DNA of 64,000 bases, from the IMG/VR virus record IMGVR_UViG_3300027733_000040, positions 32,989 to 96,988 of that record. One strand, 5' to 3'. The first letter of the stretch is position 1, and each line of letters opens with the position of its first letter. The translations under genes were made by a program, and so were the position numbers. The stretch is from a virus. Below are positions 2,906 through 63,015 of this stretch, piece after piece. Below the pieces are notes generated by a model. It saw nothing but the letters and a program-made list of their open reading frames with translations, ran no database searches and was not told where the DNA came from.

Positions 2906-4720
2906 ATGTTAGAAATCAAATCGGTTAAGTGGCGTAATTTTCTTTCATATGGTGATTATGAATCGGTATTATCTCTTGAGGATCCTGGGAGCTGCTTAAT
3001 AACAGGTGAAATAGATTCTGGCAATTCGCCCCAAGTCGGCTCAGAAGATATTCGCAAATCTAATGGTTCTGGTAAGAGTTCTATTCCAAATGTCGTATTG
3101 TGGGGCCTATTTGGCCGTACCATGCACGCTTCGTCAGCTGGTGATTCGATCATTAATCACTTTACTGGCAAGACTTGCGAAGTTATAATCGATTTTAAAA
3201 ACGGTGATCAAATTATCAGGCGTCGTCAAAAAGGCGGCACTACGGAAGTGTTGTTTAGTAGAGATGGCGATGAAACTAGGATTTCAGCCGACACCGTTTC
3301 TACATCTAAAGCCATGCAATCGCAGCTTAATAAGACCTTCAATCTCGACTATGATATATTTTGTGGTAGTGTTTTCTTTAATCAATATGGCCGTTCGTGG
3401 ATGGAAATGAGCGAAGTCGCGAGGAAAAAGGCTTTAGAAAAAATTCTAAGAGTCGATAGGTTTAGCTTCTATGCCAAAATTGCTAAAGCTAAATCTGACA
3501 ATGCTCAATTTCTTTTTACAAATTTTAAATCTAAAATTATAGACCTTGAAGCCAACAGAGATAGGACGATAAGTGATATCCAGTCTTATCGCGAAGAAAG
3601 TGGCGCCTATGAAATCAAGAGAGCCAAAAGGATATCTGATATAGATGCTATGATCGCTACTGTCAATGAAAAGATGAATAAGATAACCATACCAGATATA
3701 GATAAGTTAACCGAAAAGTGGAAGTTAATAGAAAAGATTAAAGCTGAAATCGATAGATTAAAATCTGAAGATGCTGGACATTTTAGAACTATCGCTACCA
3801 TAGAATCGAATATAGCCGTCTTAAAAAAGCGACGCGATGAGGTTAACAAGCTACAGGGCAAGAGTTGTGTCGCTTGCCAACAATCTATACCATCAAGCAT
3901 GATAACAAATAATCTTGACAAGATTGAAAAAGAGTTAACTACATTTGGTGTGCAATTAGCCGATGCTACCGCCGCTAGAGAAGAGAGCAATAAGGTTATT
4001 AAGAAGTACGAGACTATGTTATCGGCTAAAATACCTAACATCACCATTATGGAAGCTAATAACCTATCAACCATAGTTTTAAATTATAAAGCTGAAATCA
4101 AAAGATTAATGGCGCTACGGGCAGAGACCGAGACCGACAGCGACCCTAATCAGACAATCATAGAGAGGCTAGAAAGTAGGTTAAAAGATATCCTCGACAA
4201 TATTTTAAAACACAAAAGCGATTTAGAAGATATTACGGTGTTAGATAAGCATTATACTTATTTATATAAATCTTATAATGACAGAAATAAAGTAAAAAGC
4301 TTTATGTGTGAAGAGCATCTTCCTTATATTAATTCTCGCCTAGAACATTATTTAGGCATTTTAGGTCTAGATATTAAGATAAAGATCGAGAACGATCTTA
4401 GAATCACAAGTAACATGTGGGGCTATGAATATCAGTCAGGCGGCGAAAGAAAAAGGACAGATCTTGCATTTATGCTTGCGTCTTATGATTTTTATGAAGT
4501 AATGTATGGTAGGCAATGTAATTTGATGGTTTTAGATGAGGTCGATGGCAGGATGGATGAGGATGGGATAGAAGGTCTGATAAGTATCATAAGAAATGAT
4601 TTATCATCAAGAATAGACAACATATTAATTATCTCACACCGTAACCAAATGTTTGATGTTTTTGACAGAGAACTAAAGGTAAAAAGGATTAACAGATTTT
4701 CTATACTATCTGGAAATTAA
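2906..4720 (+). CDS. gp46-like recombination endonuclease ATPase subunit (SbcC/Rad50 family)
   Basis: At 604 residues this is the ATPase partner of the Mre11/gp47-type nuclease that resects DNA ends for recombination-dependent replication. The N-terminus has the SMC-like WRNFLSYGD strand and a Walker A loop ending NGSGKSS (53-59); a zinc hook CVAC (321-324) sits inside the coiled coil; the ABC signature SGGERKR begins near 511 and Walker B LMVLDE near 540-545, followed by an SHR switch. The P-loop has an unusual insertion of about 18 residues between LITGE and NGSGKS. No gp47-like nuclease gene is visible in this window. The gene starts immediately after the preceding stop. Confidence 0.9.
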   Translation: MLEIKSVKWRNFLSYGDYESVLSLEDPGSCLITGEIDSGNSPQVGSEDIRKSNGSGKSSIPNVVLWGLFGRTMHASSAGDSIINHFTGKTCEVIIDFKNGDQIIRRRQKGGTTEVLFSRDGDETRISADTVSTSKAMQSQLNKTFNLDYDIFCGSVFFNQYGRSWMEMSEVARKKALEKILRVDRFSFYAKIAKAKSDNAQFLFTNFKSKIIDLEANRDRTISDIQSYREESGAYEIKRAKRISDIDAMIATVNEKMNKITIPDIDKLTEKWKLIEKIKAEIDRLKSEDAGHFRTIATIESNIAVLKKRRDEVNKLQGKSCVACQQSIPSSMITNNLDKIEKELTTFGVQLADATAAREESNKVIKKYETMLSAKIPNITIMEANNLSTIVLNYKAEIKRLMALRAETETDSDPNQTIIERLESRLKDILDNILKHKSDLEDITVLDKHYTYLYKSYNDRNKVKSFMCEEHLPYINSRLEHYLGILGLDIKIKIENDLRITSNMWGYEYQSGGERKRTDLAFMLASYDFYEVMYGRQCNLMVLDEVDGRMDEDGIEGLISIIRNDLSSRIDNILIISHRNQMFDVFDRELKVKRINRFSILSGN

Positions 4721-5282: not shown

Positions 5283-5648
5283 TTATTTTAAAAATTTTAA
5301 TTTATAAATGGTTTTATACATCAGGGAACTTATCTCCTGCATAATATTTCCGAGATGCCCGCATCCTTCCGGCATTTTCTCTGAAATTTTTGATACTTCT
5401 GATGCAAAAGATTCGAGGTATTCTACAATGTCCGTGTACTCTAGAAATAATTTATCTATTGGTTCTATTAATCCGAATTGTCCTTGATAGGTTTCAATTA
5501 ATTCGTCTGTTAATCCTAGCAATCCGTCATATAGTTCATTCAATGCTATATGTGCTGAAAACATATCTGTCTTTAAATGTTCATTATGCGCGATCTGCCT
5601 TGTCGAAAACAATTTAATGAACATCTTTTGCATTAAACCCTTGTCCAC
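5283..5648 (-). CDS. Small helical protein of unknown function
   Basis: This 121-residue protein starts at a GTG (MDKGLMQKMF) with a good TAAGGAG ribosome site upstream. The sequence is leucine-, isoleucine- and glutamate-rich, with predicted helices throughout, and ends in a lysine-rich MYKTIYKLKFLK. No catalytic motif is visible. It is divergent from the NucS-like gene, with which it shares a 49-base intergenic region containing a perfect 8-base inverted repeat, and convergent with 4731-5282. Confidence 0.6.
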   Translation of the reverse strand: MDKGLMQKMFIKLFSTRQIAHNEHLKTDMFSAHIALNELYDGLLGLTDELIETYQGQFGLIEPIDKLFLEYTDIVEYLESFASEVSKISEKMPEGCGHLGNIMQEISSLMYKTIYKLKFLK

Positions 5649-5697: not shown

Positions 5698-6312
5698 TTG
5701 GTAAGTCACATTATTTTGGCAAATTGTTCTGTAGAGTATGACGGTAGAGGCCTAAGCAATTTATCGAGCGGTGTCTACCTAATTGTTATTAAAGCCGATG
5801 CGTCGTTGCAGATACACACATCGAGGCTTATAAAGCCTATTAACTATATGGCGGCTGGGTCTAGAATCGATTTCGATGGCGATAATATAATAGCGAGGAA
5901 TCGATCAGAAACGATAAAAATCAAGATAAGCAATACGATTCATTCATTTAGCCCTGCCGAGTGGCACGATAATAAGATACAGATGCTAAGGACTGAAGCT
6001 GAATTAGTCCAGAAGTTACTTGTCGAACTTAATGCCGATTATCCAAACGATGAATATATTCAAGAGTATGACACAAAATCGCTTGGTTTAATCGATCTTG
6101 TTAGAATCGATTCTTTTTCAGTTTATCATTCTTATGAAGTTAAAAGGAAAAAGGCATCTATAGCTAATGTTTCACAGGCCATAAGATACGTAGAATATTT
6201 ATCAGCTATTAATAAGAAATGTGTAGGATATATAGTGGCTCCAAGTATTACTGAGAATGCTTTGGAATACGCCGAAAGTAAACATATAATAGTCAAGATA
6301 ATTGACTTCTGA
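5698..6312 (+). CDS. NucS/EndoMS-like mismatch or flap endonuclease
   Basis: The start TTG at 5698 gives MVSHIILANCSVEYDGRG, matching the usual NucS N-terminus, with GAGG seven bases upstream. The DNA-binding half has VIKADASLQIH and KPINYM (family normally has Trp where this has Tyr). The C-terminal RecB-like nuclease core has D133, E147-x-K149, Q160 and Y164 in LIDLV, YEVKR and SQAIRYVEYL, with the same spacing as the catalytic residues known in archaeal NucS. EndoMS cuts both strands at mismatches. At 204 residues it is slightly shorter than cellular forms. A role in phage replication repair, or in cutting host DNA, is inference. Confidence 0.8.
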   Translation: MVSHIILANCSVEYDGRGLSNLSSGVYLIVIKADASLQIHTSRLIKPINYMAAGSRIDFDGDNIIARNRSETIKIKISNTIHSFSPAEWHDNKIQMLRTEAELVQKLLVELNADYPNDEYIQEYDTKSLGLIDLVRIDSFSVYHSYEVKRKKASIANVSQAIRYVEYLSAINKKCVGYIVAPSITENALEYAESKHIIVKIIDF

Positions 6313-11774: not shown

Positions 11775-12164
11775 ATGACTAAGATTTACGTTGCATCAAG
11801 TTTATATAACAAAACCAATGTTAAGGCACTCTATAAATATCTTGCTTATTTACAATGTACTATTACTTATGATTGGACCACTCATGGTGGTGTAAATGAT
11901 GAGGCTTCGCTTAAAGAGATCGGGCTCAAAGAATACCAAGGTGTTGTCGATTGTGATGTTTTGGTTATGTTAATGCCTGCGAGGCTTGGTTCGCATGTCG
12001 AGCTTGGTATAGCTTTAGCGCTCTGTAAACCGGTCATTATTATTACTAACGGTGAAGATTTCGAGAAAAAGTCATTTTATTTCTTAGACCATGTAAATAT
12101 TATCAGAGATATTGATGCTCTAAAAGGCGCACTTGATAAAATCACGGAACAAGAAAATGACTAA
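11775..12164 (+). CDS. Nucleoside 2-deoxyribosyltransferase-like (NDT/DNPH1 fold)
   Basis: The 129-residue Rossmann-like protein begins KIYVASSLYNK, the typical N-terminal strand of nucleoside deoxyribosyltransferases, has YDWTTHGG, and a late HVELGIALALCKPVIIIT segment where E76 occupies the place of the catalytic glutamate in ELG/EIG motifs. Enzymes of this fold cut or swap the N-glycosidic bond of deoxynucleosides or, as with DNPH1, of dNMPs to give deoxyribose 5-phosphate. The next gene is DeoC-like and the following but one is PurZ-like, so purine deoxynucleotide handling is likely. Exact substrate unknown. Confidence 0.6.
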   Translation: MTKIYVASSLYNKTNVKALYKYLAYLQCTITYDWTTHGGVNDEASLKEIGLKEYQGVVDCDVLVMLMPARLGSHVELGIALALCKPVIIITNGEDFEKKSFYFLDHVNIIRDIDALKGALDKITEQEND

Positions 12165-12834
12165 TGGCGAACTGCTCACCAGAATAGAAATAGATGTTTT
12201 CCAAGGAAACGAAATCCTAGAATCCTTTGAATTAGCTCATAAGTACCGTCTGCCTGCGATCATAGTACATCCTTCATTAAGCTCTGATGCTTTGGTTTGT
12301 AGAGGCAGATCAAAAGGGAAGTATAAGATCATCACGCCGGTAGATTGGCCTAGGGGTGAAGTCTTCTCTACAGATAAGTTCAAGGGTCTAAGCTTAGATT
12401 CTTTAGAGACCGATGGTTTTGAGATATACATATCGCCAAAAAAGCAAAAGGGCGATATCAGAAAAGAAATAATTTCGTGTACAGAGTTTTTAAAGAAGTT
12501 TATTGGCGAGCTTTGTGAAATAAGATTCGTCATAGGCACAAGGACTAAGGATGAAGCTGATCTAGCGAGTGCTTATGAGGCCTTTCGTGATCTAAAGACA
12601 CCGACTTTAATTCGAGACGATATCTCCTTGAAGACTCAGAATTACAAGGCCAATCCAGCTATACACAGCGCTTTTATCACCAACATGTCGCAATTCTTAA
12701 AATGCCCGATAAAAGTAAGTGGTAATCTTGACTGTATTGAAGATTTACTGGCCTGCGAACCTGCAAAGCGATTTGGTGCCAGTCTTCAGCAGACCAAAGG
12801 CATAATTAGAAGTATTAATACGGTGAAAAAATGA
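12157..12834 (+). CDS. DeoC-like aldolase-fold protein
   Basis: The 225-residue protein resembles the deoxyribose-phosphate aldolase barrel: an early alternating strand/helix with LPAIIVHPSL, and a late IKVSGNLDCIEDLL followed by RFGASL, which matches the family's IKASGGIRTLEDAL and GTS region. DeoC cleaves deoxyribose 5-phosphate to glyceraldehyde 3-phosphate and acetaldehyde. The Schiff-base lysine strand is not clear here (TLIRDD in its place), so activity is uncertain and it may be a divergent or non-catalytic relative. The ATG at 12157 overlaps the previous stop; the next gene overlaps its stop by four bases. Confidence 0.5.
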   Translation: MTNGELLTRIEIDVFQGNEILESFELAHKYRLPAIIVHPSLSSDALVCRGRSKGKYKIITPVDWPRGEVFSTDKFKGLSLDSLETDGFEIYISPKKQKGDIRKEIISCTEFLKKFIGELCEIRFVIGTRTKDEADLASAYEAFRDLKTPTLIRDDISLKTQNYKANPAIHSAFITNMSQFLKCPIKVSGNLDCIEDLLACEPAKRFGASLQQTKGIIRSINTVKK

Positions 12835-13127
12835 ACATTATTGAAATATTAGACCAGTTAGATGATGATATCGGTCTTTTATTTAAGACCGAGCAATGGT
12901 TACATTCAGAAAAATCGCGTGTGTCAGCTGAAGCTTCTGACATACTAAACAGATTAAAAGCAATTGACAATGCTATAAATCTGAAGAAGGTATTGAATAA
13001 CATAGACATTGGGGCTTTAAGGCATGCCTACGATGATGGTTTCCACGGAAAAGAAAATTTAATGCTTGAATTGATCAAATCCTATCTGAATAATTCTTCG
13101 GCGGAGGCTCAAGATGCAACGCGGTAA
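12831..13127 (+). CDS. Small helical protein, unknown
   Basis: The 98-residue helical protein starts in an ATGA overlap with the DeoC-like gene and its end overlaps the PurZ start by 14 bases, and the PurZ ribosome site (GGAGG) lies inside it. It is acidic and charge-rich (EQWLHSEKSRVSAEAS) with no motif I recognise. Its tight coupling suggests a partner of the neighbouring nucleotide enzymes, but this is only position-based. Confidence 0.6.
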   Translation: MNIIEILDQLDDDIGLLFKTEQWLHSEKSRVSAEASDILNRLKAIDNAINLKKVLNNIDIGALRHAYDDGFHGKENLMLELIKSYLNNSSAEAQDATR

Positions 13128-14313
13128 GTTCAATGTGGTTACTGATGGTCAGTTCGGTAGCACCGGAAAAGGGCTGATCACTTCTTACCTTGCACAAAAA
13201 CACAGACCCGAATTTTTATCAAACACCAATATGGCCAATGCTGGACACACAGCCGTTAATGTAGATGGCACTGCTTATATCGCTAAAGCAATGCCATCGG
13301 CTGCGATATTAAGAAAATGGCTACCTGATTACAATCCTTGGATAATAATGGGTTCTTCTTCTGCATTTACGCTACCGCAGCTAATGAAAGAAGTCGAAAT
13401 AACTGGAAGTGTCGATAGGCTTATTATTCACCAAAGAGCTATGGTGATCACAGAAGAGCACAGGCAAAGGGAAAACGAAGGCAAGGATAGCACAAAGCAT
13501 TTAGCGAGCACGATGCAGGGCTGTGGGGCCGCCATAGCAGACAAGATCCAAAGATTGCCAGGGACCAAGCTTGCAGTTGATTACGAAGAATTAAGTCGAT
13601 TTGTATTTTGCAAAACGTGGACACGACCTTCTTCTATATTAGAGGATATGTCTCTTTTTGATCCATTTAATGTGATGTGTAAACACCATTGTGAAGCCCT
13701 ACACGAATACATTGACTGTGTACTCAGGGCTACGTTCACTTTTCTCCACGAAGGCGCTCAGGGATTTTCGCTTGATATCAATCATGGCCACTCATATCCT
13801 ACTTGCACTAGCCGCGGTACATCGGCAATTCAGAATTTAGCCGATATGGGTATTTCGCCCAAGTTCCTTGGTGATGTATATCTGGTACTTCGACCATATC
13901 CAATAAGAGTTGGCAATGTGATCGAAGATGGTGTTCAGCAAGGGTATTCTGGTGGTGGTTACGATGACCAAGTCGAAATCGATTGGGAAGAAATAGCAAG
14001 AAAATCTGGGATGCCGCTAGAGTACGCTACGATATTAAGAGAGAAAGAGAAAACCACCGTTACAAAAAGGGTTAGAAGGGTGTTTTCTTTTTCTAAAAGG
14101 CAACTGCGTGAGGCCGTGATGGTGAATGGTGCCACTAAATTAGCTCTTAATTTTGCTAATTATATCGACTGGGCTTGCTTTGCATCATCATCAAAAGACA
14201 AACTTACCCCAAAGATCCTTGATTTTATAAAAATGCTCGAGGATGTCGCCGGAATACCTGTAACGCTTGTTGGAACTGGCCCACAATATGACCACGTCAT
14301 TGACCTATCGTAA
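13114..14313 (+). CDS. purZ: PurZ-like adenylosuccinate synthetase (2-aminoadenylosuccinate type)
   Basis: At 399 residues this belongs to the PurA superfamily, which joins aspartate to a purine 6-position using a nucleoside triphosphate. It has the P-loop GQFGSTGKG (12-20), the NAGHT loop (42-46, with the catalytic His45), EGAQGFSL (213-220), CTSRGT, PIRVG and TTVTKRVRRVFSFS (314-327), all in the form seen in phage PurZ. The Ser16 stands where cellular PurA has the catalytic Asp; this exchange is diagnostic for PurZ enzymes that use dGMP to start diaminopurine (Z) synthesis. No DatZ, MazZ or DpoZ gene is visible here, so Z DNA is a proposal. Confidence 0.85.
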   Translation: MQRGKFNVVTDGQFGSTGKGLITSYLAQKHRPEFLSNTNMANAGHTAVNVDGTAYIAKAMPSAAILRKWLPDYNPWIIMGSSSAFTLPQLMKEVEITGSVDRLIIHQRAMVITEEHRQRENEGKDSTKHLASTMQGCGAAIADKIQRLPGTKLAVDYEELSRFVFCKTWTRPSSILEDMSLFDPFNVMCKHHCEALHEYIDCVLRATFTFLHEGAQGFSLDINHGHSYPTCTSRGTSAIQNLADMGISPKFLGDVYLVLRPYPIRVGNVIEDGVQQGYSGGGYDDQVEIDWEEIARKSGMPLEYATILREKEKTTVTKRVRRVFSFSKRQLREAVMVNGATKLALNFANYIDWACFASSSKDKLTPKILDFIKMLEDVAGIPVTLVGTGPQYDHVIDLS

Positions 14314-50330: not shown

Positions 50331-50981
50331 ATGGACACAGACTTAAACACTTTTGATCCTGAGCAAGTTTTTACCATTTGCCAAGATATTTACAAGGGCT
50401 TTGGTATAGATCTCAAGTTTCCTAAAGCCAGAGACGTCACCAAGACTTATCAATACCGGTATTTAACAGCTATCTGCGATAAATTCATACAGTGGGATCT
50501 TGATCTAAATGAGGTCAAGAGATTTCTTGCTATTGCCATAGGTAATTCTTTTAAGCACAAAACGATTAAAAAGGGTCTATCGGCATTACATCAGAAGAAT
50601 CTCCTGCAGATATCTTATGAACAATTGATCAGTAGTAATAATACCCTATCACAAATCGACCAGACATCTCAGTCTGTTTATCTGTTTCTAAAGCAGTTTT
50701 GTGATGAAAAAAGTGCTTACACGATCCTTAGCAAACGCGAAGGGCCACGATCTAATATGGTATTAACGAATTTATTTCAAGCTGGTAAAATAAATATCGA
50801 ATTTTTGGCTATCAATAATTTGTGTAGGAGAATTGCAATGGATGCAATTTCAAAAGATTTACAGGACGCAATGTTCTTGCCAACTCTCGGAAAGCTCTAT
50901 GTCGTAAATCGAGATCTTTCTGCGAACAATGCTAATTTTACTAATTTTAAAACCATAAAGGAATGGGGTTCACTTTCATGA
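50331..50981 (+). CDS. Unknown soluble protein
   Basis: The 216-residue alpha-helical protein (NEVKRFLAIAIGNSFKHKTIKKG and SVYLFLKQFCDEKSAYTI) has no motif that I recognise. It starts at ATG without a clear ribosome site. Its TGA overlaps the ATG of the ribonucleotide reductase. Location next to replication genes suggests a DNA-replication accessory role; this is inference only. Confidence 0.55.
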   Translation: MDTDLNTFDPEQVFTICQDIYKGFGIDLKFPKARDVTKTYQYRYLTAICDKFIQWDLDLNEVKRFLAIAIGNSFKHKTIKKGLSALHQKNLLQISYEQLISSNNTLSQIDQTSQSVYLFLKQFCDEKSAYTILSKREGPRSNMVLTNLFQAGKINIEFLAINNLCRRIAMDAISKDLQDAMFLPTLGKLYVVNRDLSANNANFTNFKTIKEWGSLS

Positions 50982-53900
50982 CTAAATTGACAACCGGCTT
51001 TAGGACTTATCTTAACGATGGTACAGCGAATGATTCTGTAGGTCATTTTAAATTAAGTGCTGATTTTTTAAAAAGTTTTGCCGGCACTAAACCAAAATTC
51101 GGATTTAATGGCTTGGGAGAATTCGTTTTCTATAGGACTTATTCCAGAGTTAAGAAGGATGGGTCGAAAGAAACATTTCTAGATATGGCTATCAGAGTCA
51201 TAGAAGGCTGTTATGAAATTCAGAGGTTACATTGCAAGAAGTTTCACATTCCTTATGATTTAGGCAAAGCACAAAGATCAGCGCAAGAAATGTTCATAAG
51301 AATGTGGGAATTTAAATTTCTACCGCCGGGACGTGGTCTTTGGATGATGGGTACCGATTTCATGTGGGAAAAAGGCTCCGCTTCATTGAACAATTGTGCT
51401 TTCGTTTCGACGGACGACAAGATAGAAGCTGATCCAGCCGAGCCATTTTGCTTTTTGATGGATATGAGTCTGCTTGGCGTTGGCGTCGGTTTCGACACTA
51501 AGGGAGCCGGCAAGGTTAAGATTAATAGGCCAAGTGATATTATTAAGCCATACTTGATATCAGATTCGAGAGAGGGCTGGGTTGATAGTGTAAGGTCATT
51601 GATCCATAGTTATACTACGAACAGCAACGAAGGATCGCTAGAATTTGACTATTCAATAATCAGACCGGCCAACGCTCCGATAAAAGGCTTTGGCGGTAAG
51701 GCCGCAGGGCCTGGGATATTACAAGAACTGCATGAACTTATTAGAAATCACTTAACTAGGCGAATTGGCAGCACTTTGTCTAGCGTTGATATTACTGATA
51801 TCATGAATTATATCGGAAGATGCGTGGTGGCAGGCAATGTAAGACGATGTTTACCCAAGGGTACGTTGGTCCATCTTAAACGCGGTTTAGTGCCTATCGA
51901 ACAAGTGCAGGTCGGTGATCTTGTCCTTACCGCCGACGGTTATCATCCCGTGGCTGAGAATGTAGCCCAAGGGATTCAAAGGGTTATTACTATTAATAGC
52001 CAGACTGGGCCGTTCCGCTGCACCGATCGCCACAGGATAGCAGTGATGACAGGTGTTGGTGTTTATGAGTGGAAACGAGCACACCAGCTTAAAGCCGGCG
52101 ATCGGATGGTCTTTGTTGATGCTATTATACCCGGCACTCCAACCGTCATGCCTGGATACAGTGATTTGTCGACACGTGGTAATAATTTAGTAGTGCCTGG
52201 TCTTACCGCAGAAGTAGCTTGGTTTCTAGGAGCGATTCAGGGTGATGGTTACGTTTATCTTGGTAGACAATATAAAGCCCGCCAGAATCATGGTGCATCG
52301 GTCTCCATTCCGATCAACCGTGACGAATACCACGATCTGATTACCGAAAAAGCAATTGCTGGTTTCGCCGTCTTTGGGTTTACACCTAGGGAGCAACCTA
52401 CTCAGGACAATAGTCGTAAAATTAGAGTAACATCTAGAAGGTTCGCTCAATATCTTCATTCTAATCTCAAACAAGCAAAGACACCTTTAAATGTTCCAGA
52501 ATATATCAGACTTGGCTTGCCAGAGATTAGGGCGGCATATTTGGCTGGTTTATTAGATTCCGATGGTTCTACTAAGAATCGTCCAGCCACCATGATTTCG
52601 AGCATTTACAGAGATTTCTTAAGACAGGTTCAAGCAGTTTATTCTAGCCTAGGAATTCCGACCAAGCTAAGACTTCGCAAAGAAGCTGATGATAAAGGTC
52701 AAGCTAAGTGGGATATTTCTCTAGTAGGTGATTTTGCCATTGCACGGTTTAGGGATTTAATACAACCGCATGCCGTCAAGACGCTACGCGAAACCACTCA
52801 TTCTAGTGGCCATGACTATGGATATCCAGCAGAATGGATAAATCGTGACAATGTCAATTATGGTAGATCTTGGTCCCCTCAACAAAATCAGATGACCTAT
52901 AGCCGCGCTTTACTATGCGACGCAAAGACTGCTTACTTGGTGCCTATCGAAGTAGAGTCAGTCGTTGACGAAGGCATTATGGTAGAGACTTTTGATCTTT
53001 CGGTTCCTGATCGTAGCGAATTCGTGGCAGAGGGTAGACTGGTCCACAACACTGCCGAAATTGCCTTTGGTAATGCTGATGATTTTGCTTACAGTAGCAT
53101 GAAAAATCCGATTGCTACGTTGAATATAGAGGAAGTGGCTAAGTTTTATGAGTGTACACAGAAGATATATTCTTCGATGCGCAGTGAAGCTACTCTTGAG
53201 GATTTTAATGGGTCAGGAATCCCAGAAGAAAGACTTATCCCTGCGATAGAGACTTGGAATGCTCTTAACCATCACAGATGGGCATCAAACAATTCTGTCT
53301 TCGCAAATGTTGGTATGAATTATGACAAGATAGGCGAACAAATAGCTGCCAATGGTGAGCCAGGACTAATCTGGCTCGACAACATTCGGGACTATGGAAG
53401 AATGATTGACGGCAGGCAGCCGGGTATTGATGGCAGGGTGATGGGTACTAACCCTTGCTGTGAACAGTCGTTAGAATCGTACGAATTATGTTGCCTCTGC
53501 GAGACATTTCCAGCTAATCATGATAATGTCGATGATTACATGAGGACTTTAAAATTCGCTTATCTTTATGCCAAGACTGTCACTTTGCTACCTACCCACA
53601 ATGCCCGCACTAATCATGTAATGCTTAGAAATAGGCGTATTGGTTTATCACAGTCAGGCATAGTTCAAGCGTTCGCTAAATTCGGCAGGCGCAAGATGCT
53701 TACTGAATTCTGCGATGCAGGGTTCCAAGAGATTAAGCGATGGGATTCGATTTATGCTGATTGGCTATGTATTCAGAAGTCTATCAAAGTGACAAGTGTT
53801 AAGCCATCTGGATCGGTTTCCTTGCTGGCTGGCGCTACTCCAGGTATTCATTATCCAGAAGCTGGTACCTATTGGCGTACCGTTAGGGTGGCTAAAGAAA

Positions 53901-54343
53901 GTATTCTAGTTAAGATCTTGTCTGATGCCGGTTATCGAATCGAGCCGTCTATTACTGATAAAGACAGGACTGTCGTGGTGTACTTCGGTGTCACAGACGA
54001 GAGGGTGCAAGCCGTTGACGAGGCCGGTATCTGGCAACAGATGGCTAATGCTACAGACTATCAGCGTTATTGGGCTGATAATCAGGTTAGCTGCACCATT
54101 AAGTTTAAGCAGAATGAGGCGAAAGAGATTAGTAAGGTACTTGAGGTTTACGAAGACCAGACTAAGGGCATTAGCTTCCTTCCACATACTGGGCATAATT
54201 ATCCCCAGGCCCCTTATATCCCATGTACCAAAGAAGAAGTCGACGAATATAATAAGGGTATTAGAGATGCCGACTATTCTGAATTTATCAATGAAGCTCT
54301 AGGCAGCAAGTTCTGCGACGGTGACAATTGCGAGTTAAGCTAG
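50978..54343 (+). CDS. nrdJ: Ribonucleotide reductase, class II (B12-dependent), with intein
   Basis: The 1121-residue precursor reduces ribonucleotides to deoxyribonucleotides with adenosylcobalamin. The N-terminus has FKFLPPGRGLWMMG and SLLGVGVGFD; the catalytic loop has NPCCEQ and LCCLCE (Asn, Cys, Glu radical set), then KPSGSVSLLAG and a C-terminal redox pair CDGDNC. This arrangement is like monomeric RTPR of Lactobacillus. Residues 291-691 are an intein inserted after GNVRR; the flanking residues join to NVRR-TAEIAFG. No separate small subunit (NrdB) is seen, consistent with class II. Overlaps the previous gene. Confidence 0.88.
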   Translation: MTKLTTGFRTYLNDGTANDSVGHFKLSADFLKSFAGTKPKFGFNGLGEFVFYRTYSRVKKDGSKETFLDMAIRVIEGCYEIQRLHCKKFHIPYDLGKAQRSAQEMFIRMWEFKFLPPGRGLWMMGTDFMWEKGSASLNNCAFVSTDDKIEADPAEPFCFLMDMSLLGVGVGFDTKGAGKVKINRPSDIIKPYLISDSREGWVDSVRSLIHSYTTNSNEGSLEFDYSIIRPANAPIKGFGGKAAGPGILQELHELIRNHLTRRIGSTLSSVDITDIMNYIGRCVVAGNVRRCLPKGTLVHLKRGLVPIEQVQVGDLVLTADGYHPVAENVAQGIQRVITINSQTGPFRCTDRHRIAVMTGVGVYEWKRAHQLKAGDRMVFVDAIIPGTPTVMPGYSDLSTRGNNLVVPGLTAEVAWFLGAIQGDGYVYLGRQYKARQNHGASVSIPINRDEYHDLITEKAIAGFAVFGFTPREQPTQDNSRKIRVTSRRFAQYLHSNLKQAKTPLNVPEYIRLGLPEIRAAYLAGLLDSDGSTKNRPATMISSIYRDFLRQVQAVYSSLGIPTKLRLRKEADDKGQAKWDISLVGDFAIARFRDLIQPHAVKTLRETTHSSGHDYGYPAEWINRDNVNYGRSWSPQQNQMTYSRALLCDAKTAYLVPIEVESVVDEGIMVETFDLSVPDRSEFVAEGRLVHNTAEIAFGNADDFAYSSMKNPIATLNIEEVAKFYECTQKIYSSMRSEATLEDFNGSGIPEERLIPAIETWNALNHHRWASNNSVFANVGMNYDKIGEQIAANGEPGLIWLDNIRDYGRMIDGRQPGIDGRVMGTNPCCEQSLESYELCCLCETFPANHDNVDDYMRTLKFAYLYAKTVTLLPTHNARTNHVMLRNRRIGLSQSGIVQAFAKFGRRKMLTEFCDAGFQEIKRWDSIYADWLCIQKSIKVTSVKPSGSVSLLAGATPGIHYPEAGTYWRTVRVAKESILVKILSDAGYRIEPSITDKDRTVVVYFGVTDERVQAVDEAGIWQQMANATDYQRYWADNQVSCTIKFKQNEAKEISKVLEVYEDQTKGISFLPHTGHNYPQAPYIPCTKEEVDEYNKGIRDADYSEFINEALGSKFCDGDNCELS
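51848..53050 (+). other. LAGLIDADG intein in the ribonucleotide reductase
   Basis: The 401-residue intein begins with Cys in CLPKGTLVHL, has block B CTDRHRIAV, two LAGLIDADG helices (FLGAIQGDGY and YLAGLLDSDGS), and ends VHN before Thr. This is a full-size bifunctional intein; the DNA-cutting activity would let it home to the same site in related phages. The junction lies in the conserved VRR-x-AE region near the substrate loop. Confidence 0.88.
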
Positions 54344-60497: not shown

Positions 60498-60522
60498 TTT
60501 ATTTTAGGGCTTGGAGCGGCAT

Positions 60523-63015
60523 ATGGCTAGCAATTGGTTAATATTCGATAGACTACGTGCCCTGACGAGGCAAAATAGAATATATCAGTCGGAAAGGATT
60601 TTTCAAGACCAAACAAACCTTGATAGATTAACATCCGGCGGTGATTTTCTCGATTTTAACCAGCAAGCTGCTATTCTTGACCAGACCAATCTTCAGATAA
60701 ATCGCCTAGAGAGATATAAAGACTATGAGCAGATGGATCAGACTGGCGAAATCAGTTTAGCTCTTGATCTATATGCAGATGAAGCCTGTTTAGTGGGTAG
60801 TACCCCGATTTTATTAGTTAATGGTTCAACTATTACGATCGAAAAGCTAGCCCAAGCCGGCAGCGAGCACGAATTTATAGTAATAGCTTATGACATCGAA
60901 AATCAGAAATTCGTTCCAGCTGTCGCTAAAGGCGCCAGAATTACTGGGACTGATGTCGATACTATTCGCGTGATCTTTGAAGACGGCACCATAATCACTA
61001 ACACTGCTGAACATCTATATTTAACTGAGACTGATGAATATATTCGTGCCTCCGAATTAAAGCCTGGGCAACGGATTCGTTCATTTACTATCATTAATGC
61101 CGACATCACTGGTGCACCTATAGATGCGCCGACTGAAGAAGACGGCGAAAAGGTGGTAAAAGCGATAGAAGATGCTGGTAAAGCCGATAAGGTATATGAC
61201 ATAGAGGTTCCTGAGCACCATAATTTTGCTGTAGGAACAGGCCCTAATTTTTTAATAGTACACAATAGTTTAGTCGATCCTGAGCGTAAGCATACACTAA
61301 TTATTAGAGCACGTTCAATCCGTTTGAAGCGAGAACTCGAAAGCCTATTCTATAACACTTTAAATTGGGATACACTTTGCCGGCCTACCATTAGGTATCT
61401 GTGCAAGTACGGCGATATGCCGTTTGAGATCACGCTTGACGCTGACCGGACATCGGTGGCGGCTCTTAAGTTTATGAATGTGTATAACTTCACAAGGATT
61501 GAGACCCGTTATGGTGATCTGATCGGCTTCTTTCACATGGACAGCATGTGGCCGAAACCCATATTTTTACATCCTTGGCAAGTGATGCATCTTCGATTGA
61601 CCAATTTTGAAAACTTTTATGCGCCCTACGGGAAATCGATCTTGGACGGCGGTAGGAAGGCATTTAAGCAATTGCGATTGATGGAAGATGCAGCTCTGAT
61701 CTATAGGATCACGAGAGCGCCAGAACGACGTAAGTTCATTATACCTGTCGGTATGATACCGCCCAAAGAAGTTCCTGAATATATGCAGATGATTGCGAGG
61801 AATTTTAAGAGGCAGAGGTTCTATAACCCTACCACTGGTTCTTTCGATGAACGATATAGTCCGCTAATCCAAGAGGATGATTATTTCTTACCGAAACGCA
61901 GTGACGGTACTGGTCCTGATGTCGAAATTCTTCAAGGCGGCGAGAACGTCGACAAAATAGCAGATATAGAATACTTCAAAAAGAAAATGGTAGCGCCCAT
62001 GAAAATTCCTTTTGCTAGAGTAGGCATCGGTGAAGGCGCTGGAGAGTCAAGCGAAAAATCTTTATCGCAGAGCCATAGCGAGTTCGCTAAAGCTGTTCAA
62101 TATATCCAAAGAGAAGTGGCGAATGGCTTAACGAAGGTCGCAATTGTCCATCTGGCTCTTAAAGGCTTCTCAGTAGAAGATCTAAAAGGATTCGAAATAG
62201 CACTCACCGCTACCAGTGCTATGGAAGAATTATATAGAATTGAATCTTGGAGAACGAGAGTCGGCGTAATGTCGGATCTTAAGGATCTTGGCTGGTTTCC
62301 TAAGGAATGGATAGTGACTCATTTTACTGATCTTACTCCCGACGAAATCCAAGAGCTTAAAGACTTAGAAATGTTAAGCAAGTCTCCAGAAAGCGAAGAA
62401 GGTGGCGAAGAAGGCGGCGGTGGCGGTGGCGGTGGCGGCGGTGGCGGTGGCGCTATGGGTGGATTAGAAGGTGCCGGCGATGCTCCTCCAGAAGGTGGTG
62501 CTCCTCCAGAGGGTGCTGAAGCCGGTGCTCCTCCAGGTGGTGCCGAAGCCGGTGCTCCTCCAGGTGGTGCTGAAGCTGGTGCTCCTCCGGGCGGTGCTGA
62601 TGCAGGGGGTTTACCGCCGCTTGGTGAGGGCGGCTTTGACGCCAAGGCTCACAAAAAGTTGATTAACGAAATGAAGCGCAAAGAAGTGTCTGGAAGGGTT
62701 AGAACATATTTAGAAAAGATACATGAGAGGCGCGGATTTAGTTATGACGATACTAAGACTTTAAATACTAAATATGAGTATTTAATTGAGTCGAAGGAAC
62801 TTGATGGTCTTTCTAGAAATCAGCCTACGCAAAAGACCAATACTATTCATGATCCTAACCAAGATCAGGAATTATTGGTAGAGTGGTCAGTCCCTAAAAT
62901 CATTAGAGATGAAGTAATTAAGGAGAATTATGACATACTGATGAGGGCTAAAGGGCAACCGATAGCTGAATCGCAGGGCGCTGATATCACAGAACATGAT
63001 TTACCAAAATCATGA
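60523..63015 (+). CDS. Portal protein (gp20-like) with mini-intein
   Basis: The 830-residue precursor forms the dodecameric portal through which DNA enters. It starts with MASNWLIFDRLRALT and has DQTGEISLALDLYADEA just before the intein and SLVDPERKHTLIIRA just after it, where T4 gp20 is continuous. The body has SILDGGRKAFKQLRLMEDAA and KKMVAPMKIPFARVG. The ATG has GGAG six bases upstream. The C-terminal region has a 70-residue Gly/Pro/Glu-rich insertion. Without the intein the protein is about 670 residues, longer than T4 gp20 (524). Confidence 0.88.
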   Translation: MASNWLIFDRLRALTRQNRIYQSERIFQDQTNLDRLTSGGDFLDFNQQAAILDQTNLQINRLERYKDYEQMDQTGEISLALDLYADEACLVGSTPILLVNGSTITIEKLAQAGSEHEFIVIAYDIENQKFVPAVAKGARITGTDVDTIRVIFEDGTIITNTAEHLYLTETDEYIRASELKPGQRIRSFTIINADITGAPIDAPTEEDGEKVVKAIEDAGKADKVYDIEVPEHHNFAVGTGPNFLIVHNSLVDPERKHTLIIRARSIRLKRELESLFYNTLNWDTLCRPTIRYLCKYGDMPFEITLDADRTSVAALKFMNVYNFTRIETRYGDLIGFFHMDSMWPKPIFLHPWQVMHLRLTNFENFYAPYGKSILDGGRKAFKQLRLMEDAALIYRITRAPERRKFIIPVGMIPPKEVPEYMQMIARNFKRQRFYNPTTGSFDERYSPLIQEDDYFLPKRSDGTGPDVEILQGGENVDKIADIEYFKKKMVAPMKIPFARVGIGEGAGESSEKSLSQSHSEFAKAVQYIQREVANGLTKVAIVHLALKGFSVEDLKGFEIALTATSAMEELYRIESWRTRVGVMSDLKDLGWFPKEWIVTHFTDLTPDEIQELKDLEMLSKSPESEEGGEEGGGGGGGGGGGGGAMGGLEGAGDAPPEGGAPPEGAEAGAPPGGAEAGAPPGGAEAGAPPGGADAGGLPPLGEGGFDAKAHKKLINEMKRKEVSGRVRTYLEKIHERRGFSYDDTKTLNTKYEYLIESKELDGLSRNQPTQKTNTIHDPNQDQELLVEWSVPKIIRDEVIKENYDILMRAKGQPIAESQGADITEHDLPKS
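60787..61266 (+). other. Mini-intein in the portal protein
   Basis: The 160-residue intein (precursor residues 89-248) starts CLVGSTPILL, has block B NTAEH (TxxH-like), block F VYDIEVPEHHNFAV, and ends IVHN before Ser. It has no LAGLIDADG or HNH endonuclease motifs, so it can splice but not home. Its removal would join ADEA to SLVDPE, restoring the conserved portal segment. Confidence 0.85.
62401..62610 (+). repeat. Gly/Pro/Ala-coding repeats in portal gene
   Basis: A run of GGTGGC-type hexamers codes for about 14 glycines, followed by four or so near-identical units of about 33 bases (each encoding GGAEAGAPP). This is a low-complexity, slippage-prone array that lengthens the portal's C-terminal region near residues 627-696. 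Confidence 0.75.

Follow-up and report, generated by a model that had tools for sequence, protein, structure and literature searches.

The locus described here raises the question of why a large tailed phage should carry a relative of the mismatch endonuclease NucS/EndoMS, whose other known carriers are archaea and some bacteria, and what such an enzyme would do in the infected cell. The window, a stretch of 64,000 nt, belongs to a 96,988 bp IMG/VR record (IMGVR_UViG_3300027733_000040) that encodes a T4-like terminase and gp46, together with a tail sheath and a portal protein assigned from reading translations only. The carrier contig is a large T4-like phage. The gene and its upstream border are as follows:

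5698–6312, plus strand: phage nucS gene with TTG start and TGA stop (ORF, Pfam, NCBIfam and PDB matches), kept in IMG/VR relatives (L004, L005, L006) at 88% amino acid identity
5687–5691, plus strand: GAGGG, a Shine-Dalgarno-like stretch 6 nt before the TTG, its GAGG conserved in relatives
5283–5648, minus strand: divergent 121 aa gene of unknown function, which sets the upstream limit of nucS

The reading frame runs from TTG at 5698 to TGA at 6310–6312 and specifies 204 amino acids (ORF translation). Three IMG/VR contigs carry the related gene, but those of 75 kb and 274,625 bp come from the same metagenome and are identical over the nucS locus, so the set amounts to two independent relatives. 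Locus comparison shows that GAGG and TTG are both kept in the two related phages, among neighbouring bases that vary. The TTG start named in the earlier note is borne out by this conserved element, and the ATG at 5617, which would give the longest ORF, was discarded because it lies inside the divergent minus-strand gene. A promoter scan gave matches no more frequently than shuffled sequences.

On sequence evidence, the product is a phage-borne homologue of NucS/EndoMS with both of its domains:

5707–5946, plus strand: NucS_N PH-like domain for mismatch reading and dimerisation, residues 4–83 (PF21003, 57.9 bits)
6061–6306, plus strand: NucS_C RecB-like nuclease domain, residues 122–203 (PF01939, 39 bits)

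Both Pfam matches lie above their cut-offs (NucS_N, E=1e-15, cut-off 23.9 bits; NucS_C, E=9.5e-10, cut-off 24 bits), and NucS_C was the sole nuclease family matched in the Pfam search of the 204 aa protein. A phmmer search of the PDB returned 2vld (E=8.7e-19) and 5gke (E=7.5e-17) and nothing else. The AlphaFold2 model, built on an alignment of 50 sequences, has a mean pLDDT of 90.9 and a pTM of 0.55, and Foldseek placed EndoMS/NucS structures at ranks 1–5 against the PDB (E from 1.3e-19 to 1.2e-16). Whole-chain TM-scores against these structures are 0.47–0.53; the low pLDDT of the interdomain linker (residues 88–96) leaves the domain orientation unfixed, and the modest scores are attributed to that orientation in the model. 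Fold searching of BFVD returned no full-length NucS, and the matches with E no higher than 1e-3 cover some 110–140 columns, which is consistent with the nuclease domain alone. PHROGs holds no family for the protein. The best NCBIfam matches are NucS equivalogs below cut-off (NF003270, 100.3 of 216 bits; NF002876, 68.8 of 252 bits), and for this reason the phage protein is not assigned as an equivalog to either of the cellular groups. The identity given in the earlier note is upheld by both Pfam domains and by the best PDB matches in sequence and fold; a profile search for a different RecB-like family returned NucS_C for the C-terminal domain, leaving that identity unrefuted. Overall, the protein is well supported as a new variant of the NucS/EndoMS family in an unusual carrier, ordinary in its chemistry and unusual in its biology.

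The residues expected of the active site are these, each located by alignment:

6094–6096, plus strand: catalytic Asp133
6136–6144, plus strand: catalytic Glu147-x-Lys149
6175–6189, plus strand: Gln160 to Tyr164, invariant active-site residues

The spacing D133-(14)-E147-x-K149, with Q160 and Y164 at +13 and +17 from the glutamate, equals that of D165, E179, K181, Q192 and Y196 of the Thermococcus kodakarensis enzyme, as counted by hand on the phmmer PDB alignment (the T. kodakarensis chain in the PDB has A at residue 165). These five residues are invariant in the 149 non-phage homologues aligned, comprising cellular, plasmid and HGTV-1 sequences, so that the catalytic spacing previously claimed from the sequence holds against a broad alignment. 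All 15 columns that are strictly invariant in those homologues are retained in the phage protein (Y14, G16, R17, K32, D34, H40, N49, E100, E123, G130, D133, E147, K149, Q160 and Y164 in phage numbering), and the match to the NucS catalytic residues is far beyond chance. Departures at columns conserved in at least 97% of sequences are R27Y, W50Y and L161A.

One of these departures falls in the pocket that receives the flipped base:

5737–5739, plus strand: Tyr14, invariant, equivalent to T. kodakarensis Tyr41, which stacks on the flipped base (alignment; role from PMC6829318)
5842–5847, plus strand: Asn49-Tyr50, equivalent to Asn76-Trp77, with Trp replaced by Tyr (alignment; role from PMC6829318)

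In a simulation study, the flipped-out G or T was sandwiched between the aromatic pair Tyr41/Trp77 and contacted by Asn76 and the Trp77 backbone, while the Trp77 side chain contacted a phosphate (PMC6829318). The phage protein keeps the equivalents of Tyr41 and Asn76 and has Tyr50 in place of Trp77. Of the 141 homologues that are cellular or from HGTV-1, 138 have Trp at this position and the other three, all Thermoproteota (L149, L152, L165; 3 of the 60 sampled archaeal NucS), have Tyr, which rules out the change as a phage-only trait. The earlier note had suggested that it may alter specificity: the substitution is real and rare, but the idea of a specificity switch is weakened by the natural occurrence of Tyr in Thermoproteota and by the retained aromatic sandwich. 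Judging from the alignment, Tyr50 should still stack on the flipped base, and the expected effect would be loss of the phosphate contact made by the Trp side chain. The altered pocket could also be read as that of a structure- or damage-specific nuclease, directed at flaps, single-stranded overhangs or deaminated bases rather than at replication mismatches, and in its first description, from Pyrococcus abyssi, NucS was a structure-specific endonuclease directed at single strands (PMC8228993). Such a role is quite unlikely, however: the invariant residues that touch the flipped base or lie beside it, Tyr14, Arg17 and Asn49, are all retained, and Tyr at position 50 is also found in cellular archaeal NucS.

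The change of Trp to Tyr is probably less consequential than a difference that the earlier note overlooked, at the end of the protein:

6307–6312, plus strand: C-terminal Phe204 and stop codon, where cellular NucS extend into a tail with a clamp/PCNA-binding motif

The phage NucS stops with the final strand of its nuclease domain. Beyond that point, all 140 sampled cellular sequences (including a few duplicates of the same genome) continue for no fewer than 8 residues (11 to 30 among the first 80), and ELRLF and QKTLDFF are examples of the motifs that close the tails inspected. In the three phage homologues this extension is absent and in HGTV-1 it is one residue long, and one of eight plasmid copies (Natrinema) is short-tailed, with three. 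Pattern scans of the phage protein found no clamp-like motif, internal or alternative. Without its last five C-terminal residues, Mycobacterium smegmatis NucS no longer supports mismatch repair in vivo (PMC11551767), and a NucS with no tail might accordingly fail at replication-coupled repair; cleavage by Sulfolobus SisEndoMS without its PIP tail is no longer stimulated by PCNA (PMC7736090). Because the tail is absent, the phage enzyme would act without docking to a sliding clamp. The 274 kb relative, which may be incomplete, gave no match to a bacterial beta-clamp (PF02768) or a T4-type clamp (PF02916); the clamp of the host is a possible docking partner. The tail-less viral proteins offer a natural experiment on whether NucS needs a sliding clamp, which is a key issue for NucS of cellular origin.

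What the phage could do with a double-strand break is suggested by the recombination genes of this lineage, one of which lies upstream of nucS:

2906–4720, plus strand: gp46/SbcC-like recombination endonuclease subunit, the proposed break-processing partner (phrog_77, E=6.5e-77)

An MRE11/gp47-like ORF, assigned by reading only, is present elsewhere on the same contig. Among the genes of the 274 kb relative are those for RecA, a gp32-like single-stranded DNA-binding protein and a DnaB-like helicase, along with Pol III alpha, spread over two ORFs, and a Pol A-like ORF; MutS was not found in this possibly incomplete record. From the bacterial-type replication genes, we infer that the host is bacterial. 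Known EndoMS/NucS enzymes cut G/T, G/G and T/T mismatches (PMC7736090). The phage protein is probably a virus-encoded mismatch endonuclease of this kind, cutting phage DNA at G/T-type mismatches independently of a clamp, with the break repaired by the phage's own gp46/47-RecA-gp32 system. A homodimer would flip the mismatched G or T into the N-terminal pocket of Tyr14, Asn49 and Tyr50, the two C-terminal nuclease domains would close on the DNA, and both strands would be cut beside the mismatch. The break, in one of many copies of the phage genome, would be processed by the gp46/gp47-like nuclease and repaired by RecA and gp32-like proteins. As phage DNA replicates and recombines, mismatches would in effect be corrected, or the copies bearing them removed. 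Counting against this reading, mycobacterial NucS repair proceeds without homologous recombination (PMC11551767), near-invariant columns are changed (Trp77-to-Tyr, Arg27-to-Tyr, Leu161-to-Ala) and the NCBIfam cut-offs are missed.

The position of nucS near gp46, in a lineage that encodes RecA and gp32-like proteins, could also be taken to indicate an anti-recombination nuclease, which would cut the heteroduplex arising from recombination between divergent phage or host sequences and keep related phages apart, and would not be mainly a fidelity factor. Loss of the clamp tail would loosen the link to the fork and suit an enzyme working on recombination intermediates. Its biochemistry would be identical to that of mismatch correction, however, and we regard this role as unlikely.

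Two further genes in the window bear on the DNA that the enzyme would encounter:

13114–14313, plus strand: PurZ-like adenylosuccinate synthetase carrying Ser at the position of the catalytic Asp, GQFGSTGKG (NF038379, 232 bits, under the cut-off of 300)
11775–12164, plus strand: nucleoside deoxyribosyltransferase-like gene, perhaps DmtZ-like (PF05014, E=6.7e-6, 26.7 bits, just under the cut-off of 28.8)

Ser in place of the catalytic Asp has been reported in all phage PurZ (PMC12884076). The closeness of these genes (11775–14313) makes this large T4-like phage a candidate for a 2-aminoadenine (Z) genome, in which NucS could still read the keto groups of G and T. If the genome does contain 2-aminoadenine, phage and host DNA could differ, and a nuclease carried by a large tailed phage might serve as a weapon that cuts the host chromosome, rival elements or superinfecting DNA. 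This is highly improbable, since the pocket of NucS recognises mismatched G and T and not bulk base composition. We know of no NucS that degrades intact duplex DNA.

Mismatch cleavage of phage DNA remains the preferred reading. Phages are generally thought to depend on polymerase proofreading and on host repair. We propose, tentatively and as a possibility on the unlikely side, that this lineage, probably with 2-aminoadenine in its DNA, has a self-contained, clamp-independent form of mismatch repair through double-strand breaks, in which a tail-less NucS works with gp46/47 and RecA, a scheme different from both MutS/MutL and the clamp-activated NucS pathway of cells. With a mismatch endonuclease carried by a phage, it can be tested whether some viruses set their own mutation or recombination rate.

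Other features were seen in these records. Pol III alpha of the 274 kb relative is split into two ORFs (G002 212351–217741, equal to L101, and L002 1904–3304) that match adjacent parts of one Pfam domain and are separated by three small ORFs, as in a split gene or one with an inserted element. Very large ORFs with long Thr-Pro-type repeats (L002 9131–19996) probably encode tail or adhesion proteins. In the window, intein-like blocks with a Cys-led start and a VHN end occur in a ribonucleotide reductase-like ORF and the portal ORF (50963–54343 and 60511–63015).

NucS is very rare in viruses, and in the sampled records was found only in this clade and in HGTV-1. Searches (tblastn) of 50,697 phage records with three different NucS queries returned one true virus, HGTV-1; the fecal 'Bacteriophage sp.' records MT838864.1 (L008) and MT836018.1 (L009) were not counted as phages, their gene content being that of actinobacterial chromosome fragments. 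Pattern-plus-tblastn scans of 2.9 million IMG/VR contigs, which depend on conserved peptide matches and can miss distant members, gave nothing beyond this clade and HGTV-1 except a single provirus end, on which half of a host-type nucS is present. The titles and abstracts searched, whose coverage is incomplete, include no report of NucS encoded by a phage. The near absence of NucS from known virus genomes makes the clade a rare handle on the viral enzyme. The provirus end (right end of IMGVR_UViG_3300017540_000270; L105 4608–6522) has a portal gene and a large serine recombinase beside the C-terminal half of an actinobacterial-type nucS, beginning at the KPLNW codons; the rest of that gene did not turn up in the record's first 6 kb. 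It looks like a prophage integrated inside the host nucS, comparable with SpyCIM1 in mutL (PMC4689407), and its lysogen could be a mutator. On Natrinema thermotolerans plasmid CP031304.1 (L174), a very short-tailed NucS is encoded some 400 bp away from a MutS gene that runs on the other strand.

In maximum-likelihood trees, the phage clade branches on a stem 4.7–4.9 substitutions per site long and falls outside the archaeal and actinobacterial clades sampled, and HGTV-1 groups among euryarchaea in both trees (support 98/85 in the larger). AU tests reject neither a single viral clade (p = 0.29) nor a grouping of the phage clade with actinobacteria (p = 0.39). In these reconstructions none of the sampled cellular lineages contains the phage clade and NucS phylogeny gives no host information, so the hint at a NucS-bearing host, drawn in the earlier note, is not supported. 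Such a long stem might be expected of a passively captured or decaying gene without function, but this is scarcely credible: dN/dS among the three phage homologues is about 0.05 (with dS near saturation), the active site is intact, and start and stop are conserved. The gene is under purifying selection, a signature that largely refutes decay.

Compared with the Thermococcales EndoMS/NucS (T. kodakarensis 5gke/5gkj and P. abyssi 2vld), the phage protein shares the two domains, the D/E/K/Q/Y spacing, the Tyr41/Asn76 pocket and the fold, but it is only 27–28% identical, has Tyr50 for Trp77 and is without the C-terminal PCNA-binding tail. Actinobacterial NucS (M. smegmatis, Corynebacterium glutamicum) have the same domains and catalytic residues, but end in a beta-clamp motif needed in vivo (PMC11551767, PMC8228993) that the phage protein lacks, and it does not nest with them. 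The 'RecB-like nuclease' gp43 of Halogranum tailed virus 1 (HGTV-1) is likewise a virus-borne NucS that stops before the clamp tail, yet it belongs to an archaeal virus, is 31% identical to the phage protein and keeps the Trp. The plasmid NucS of Deinococcus and haloarchaea are also carried on mobile DNA, and the Natrinema copy is similarly short-tailed, whereas the identity is about 25–33%, most keep the terminal tail and all eight examined keep the Trp.
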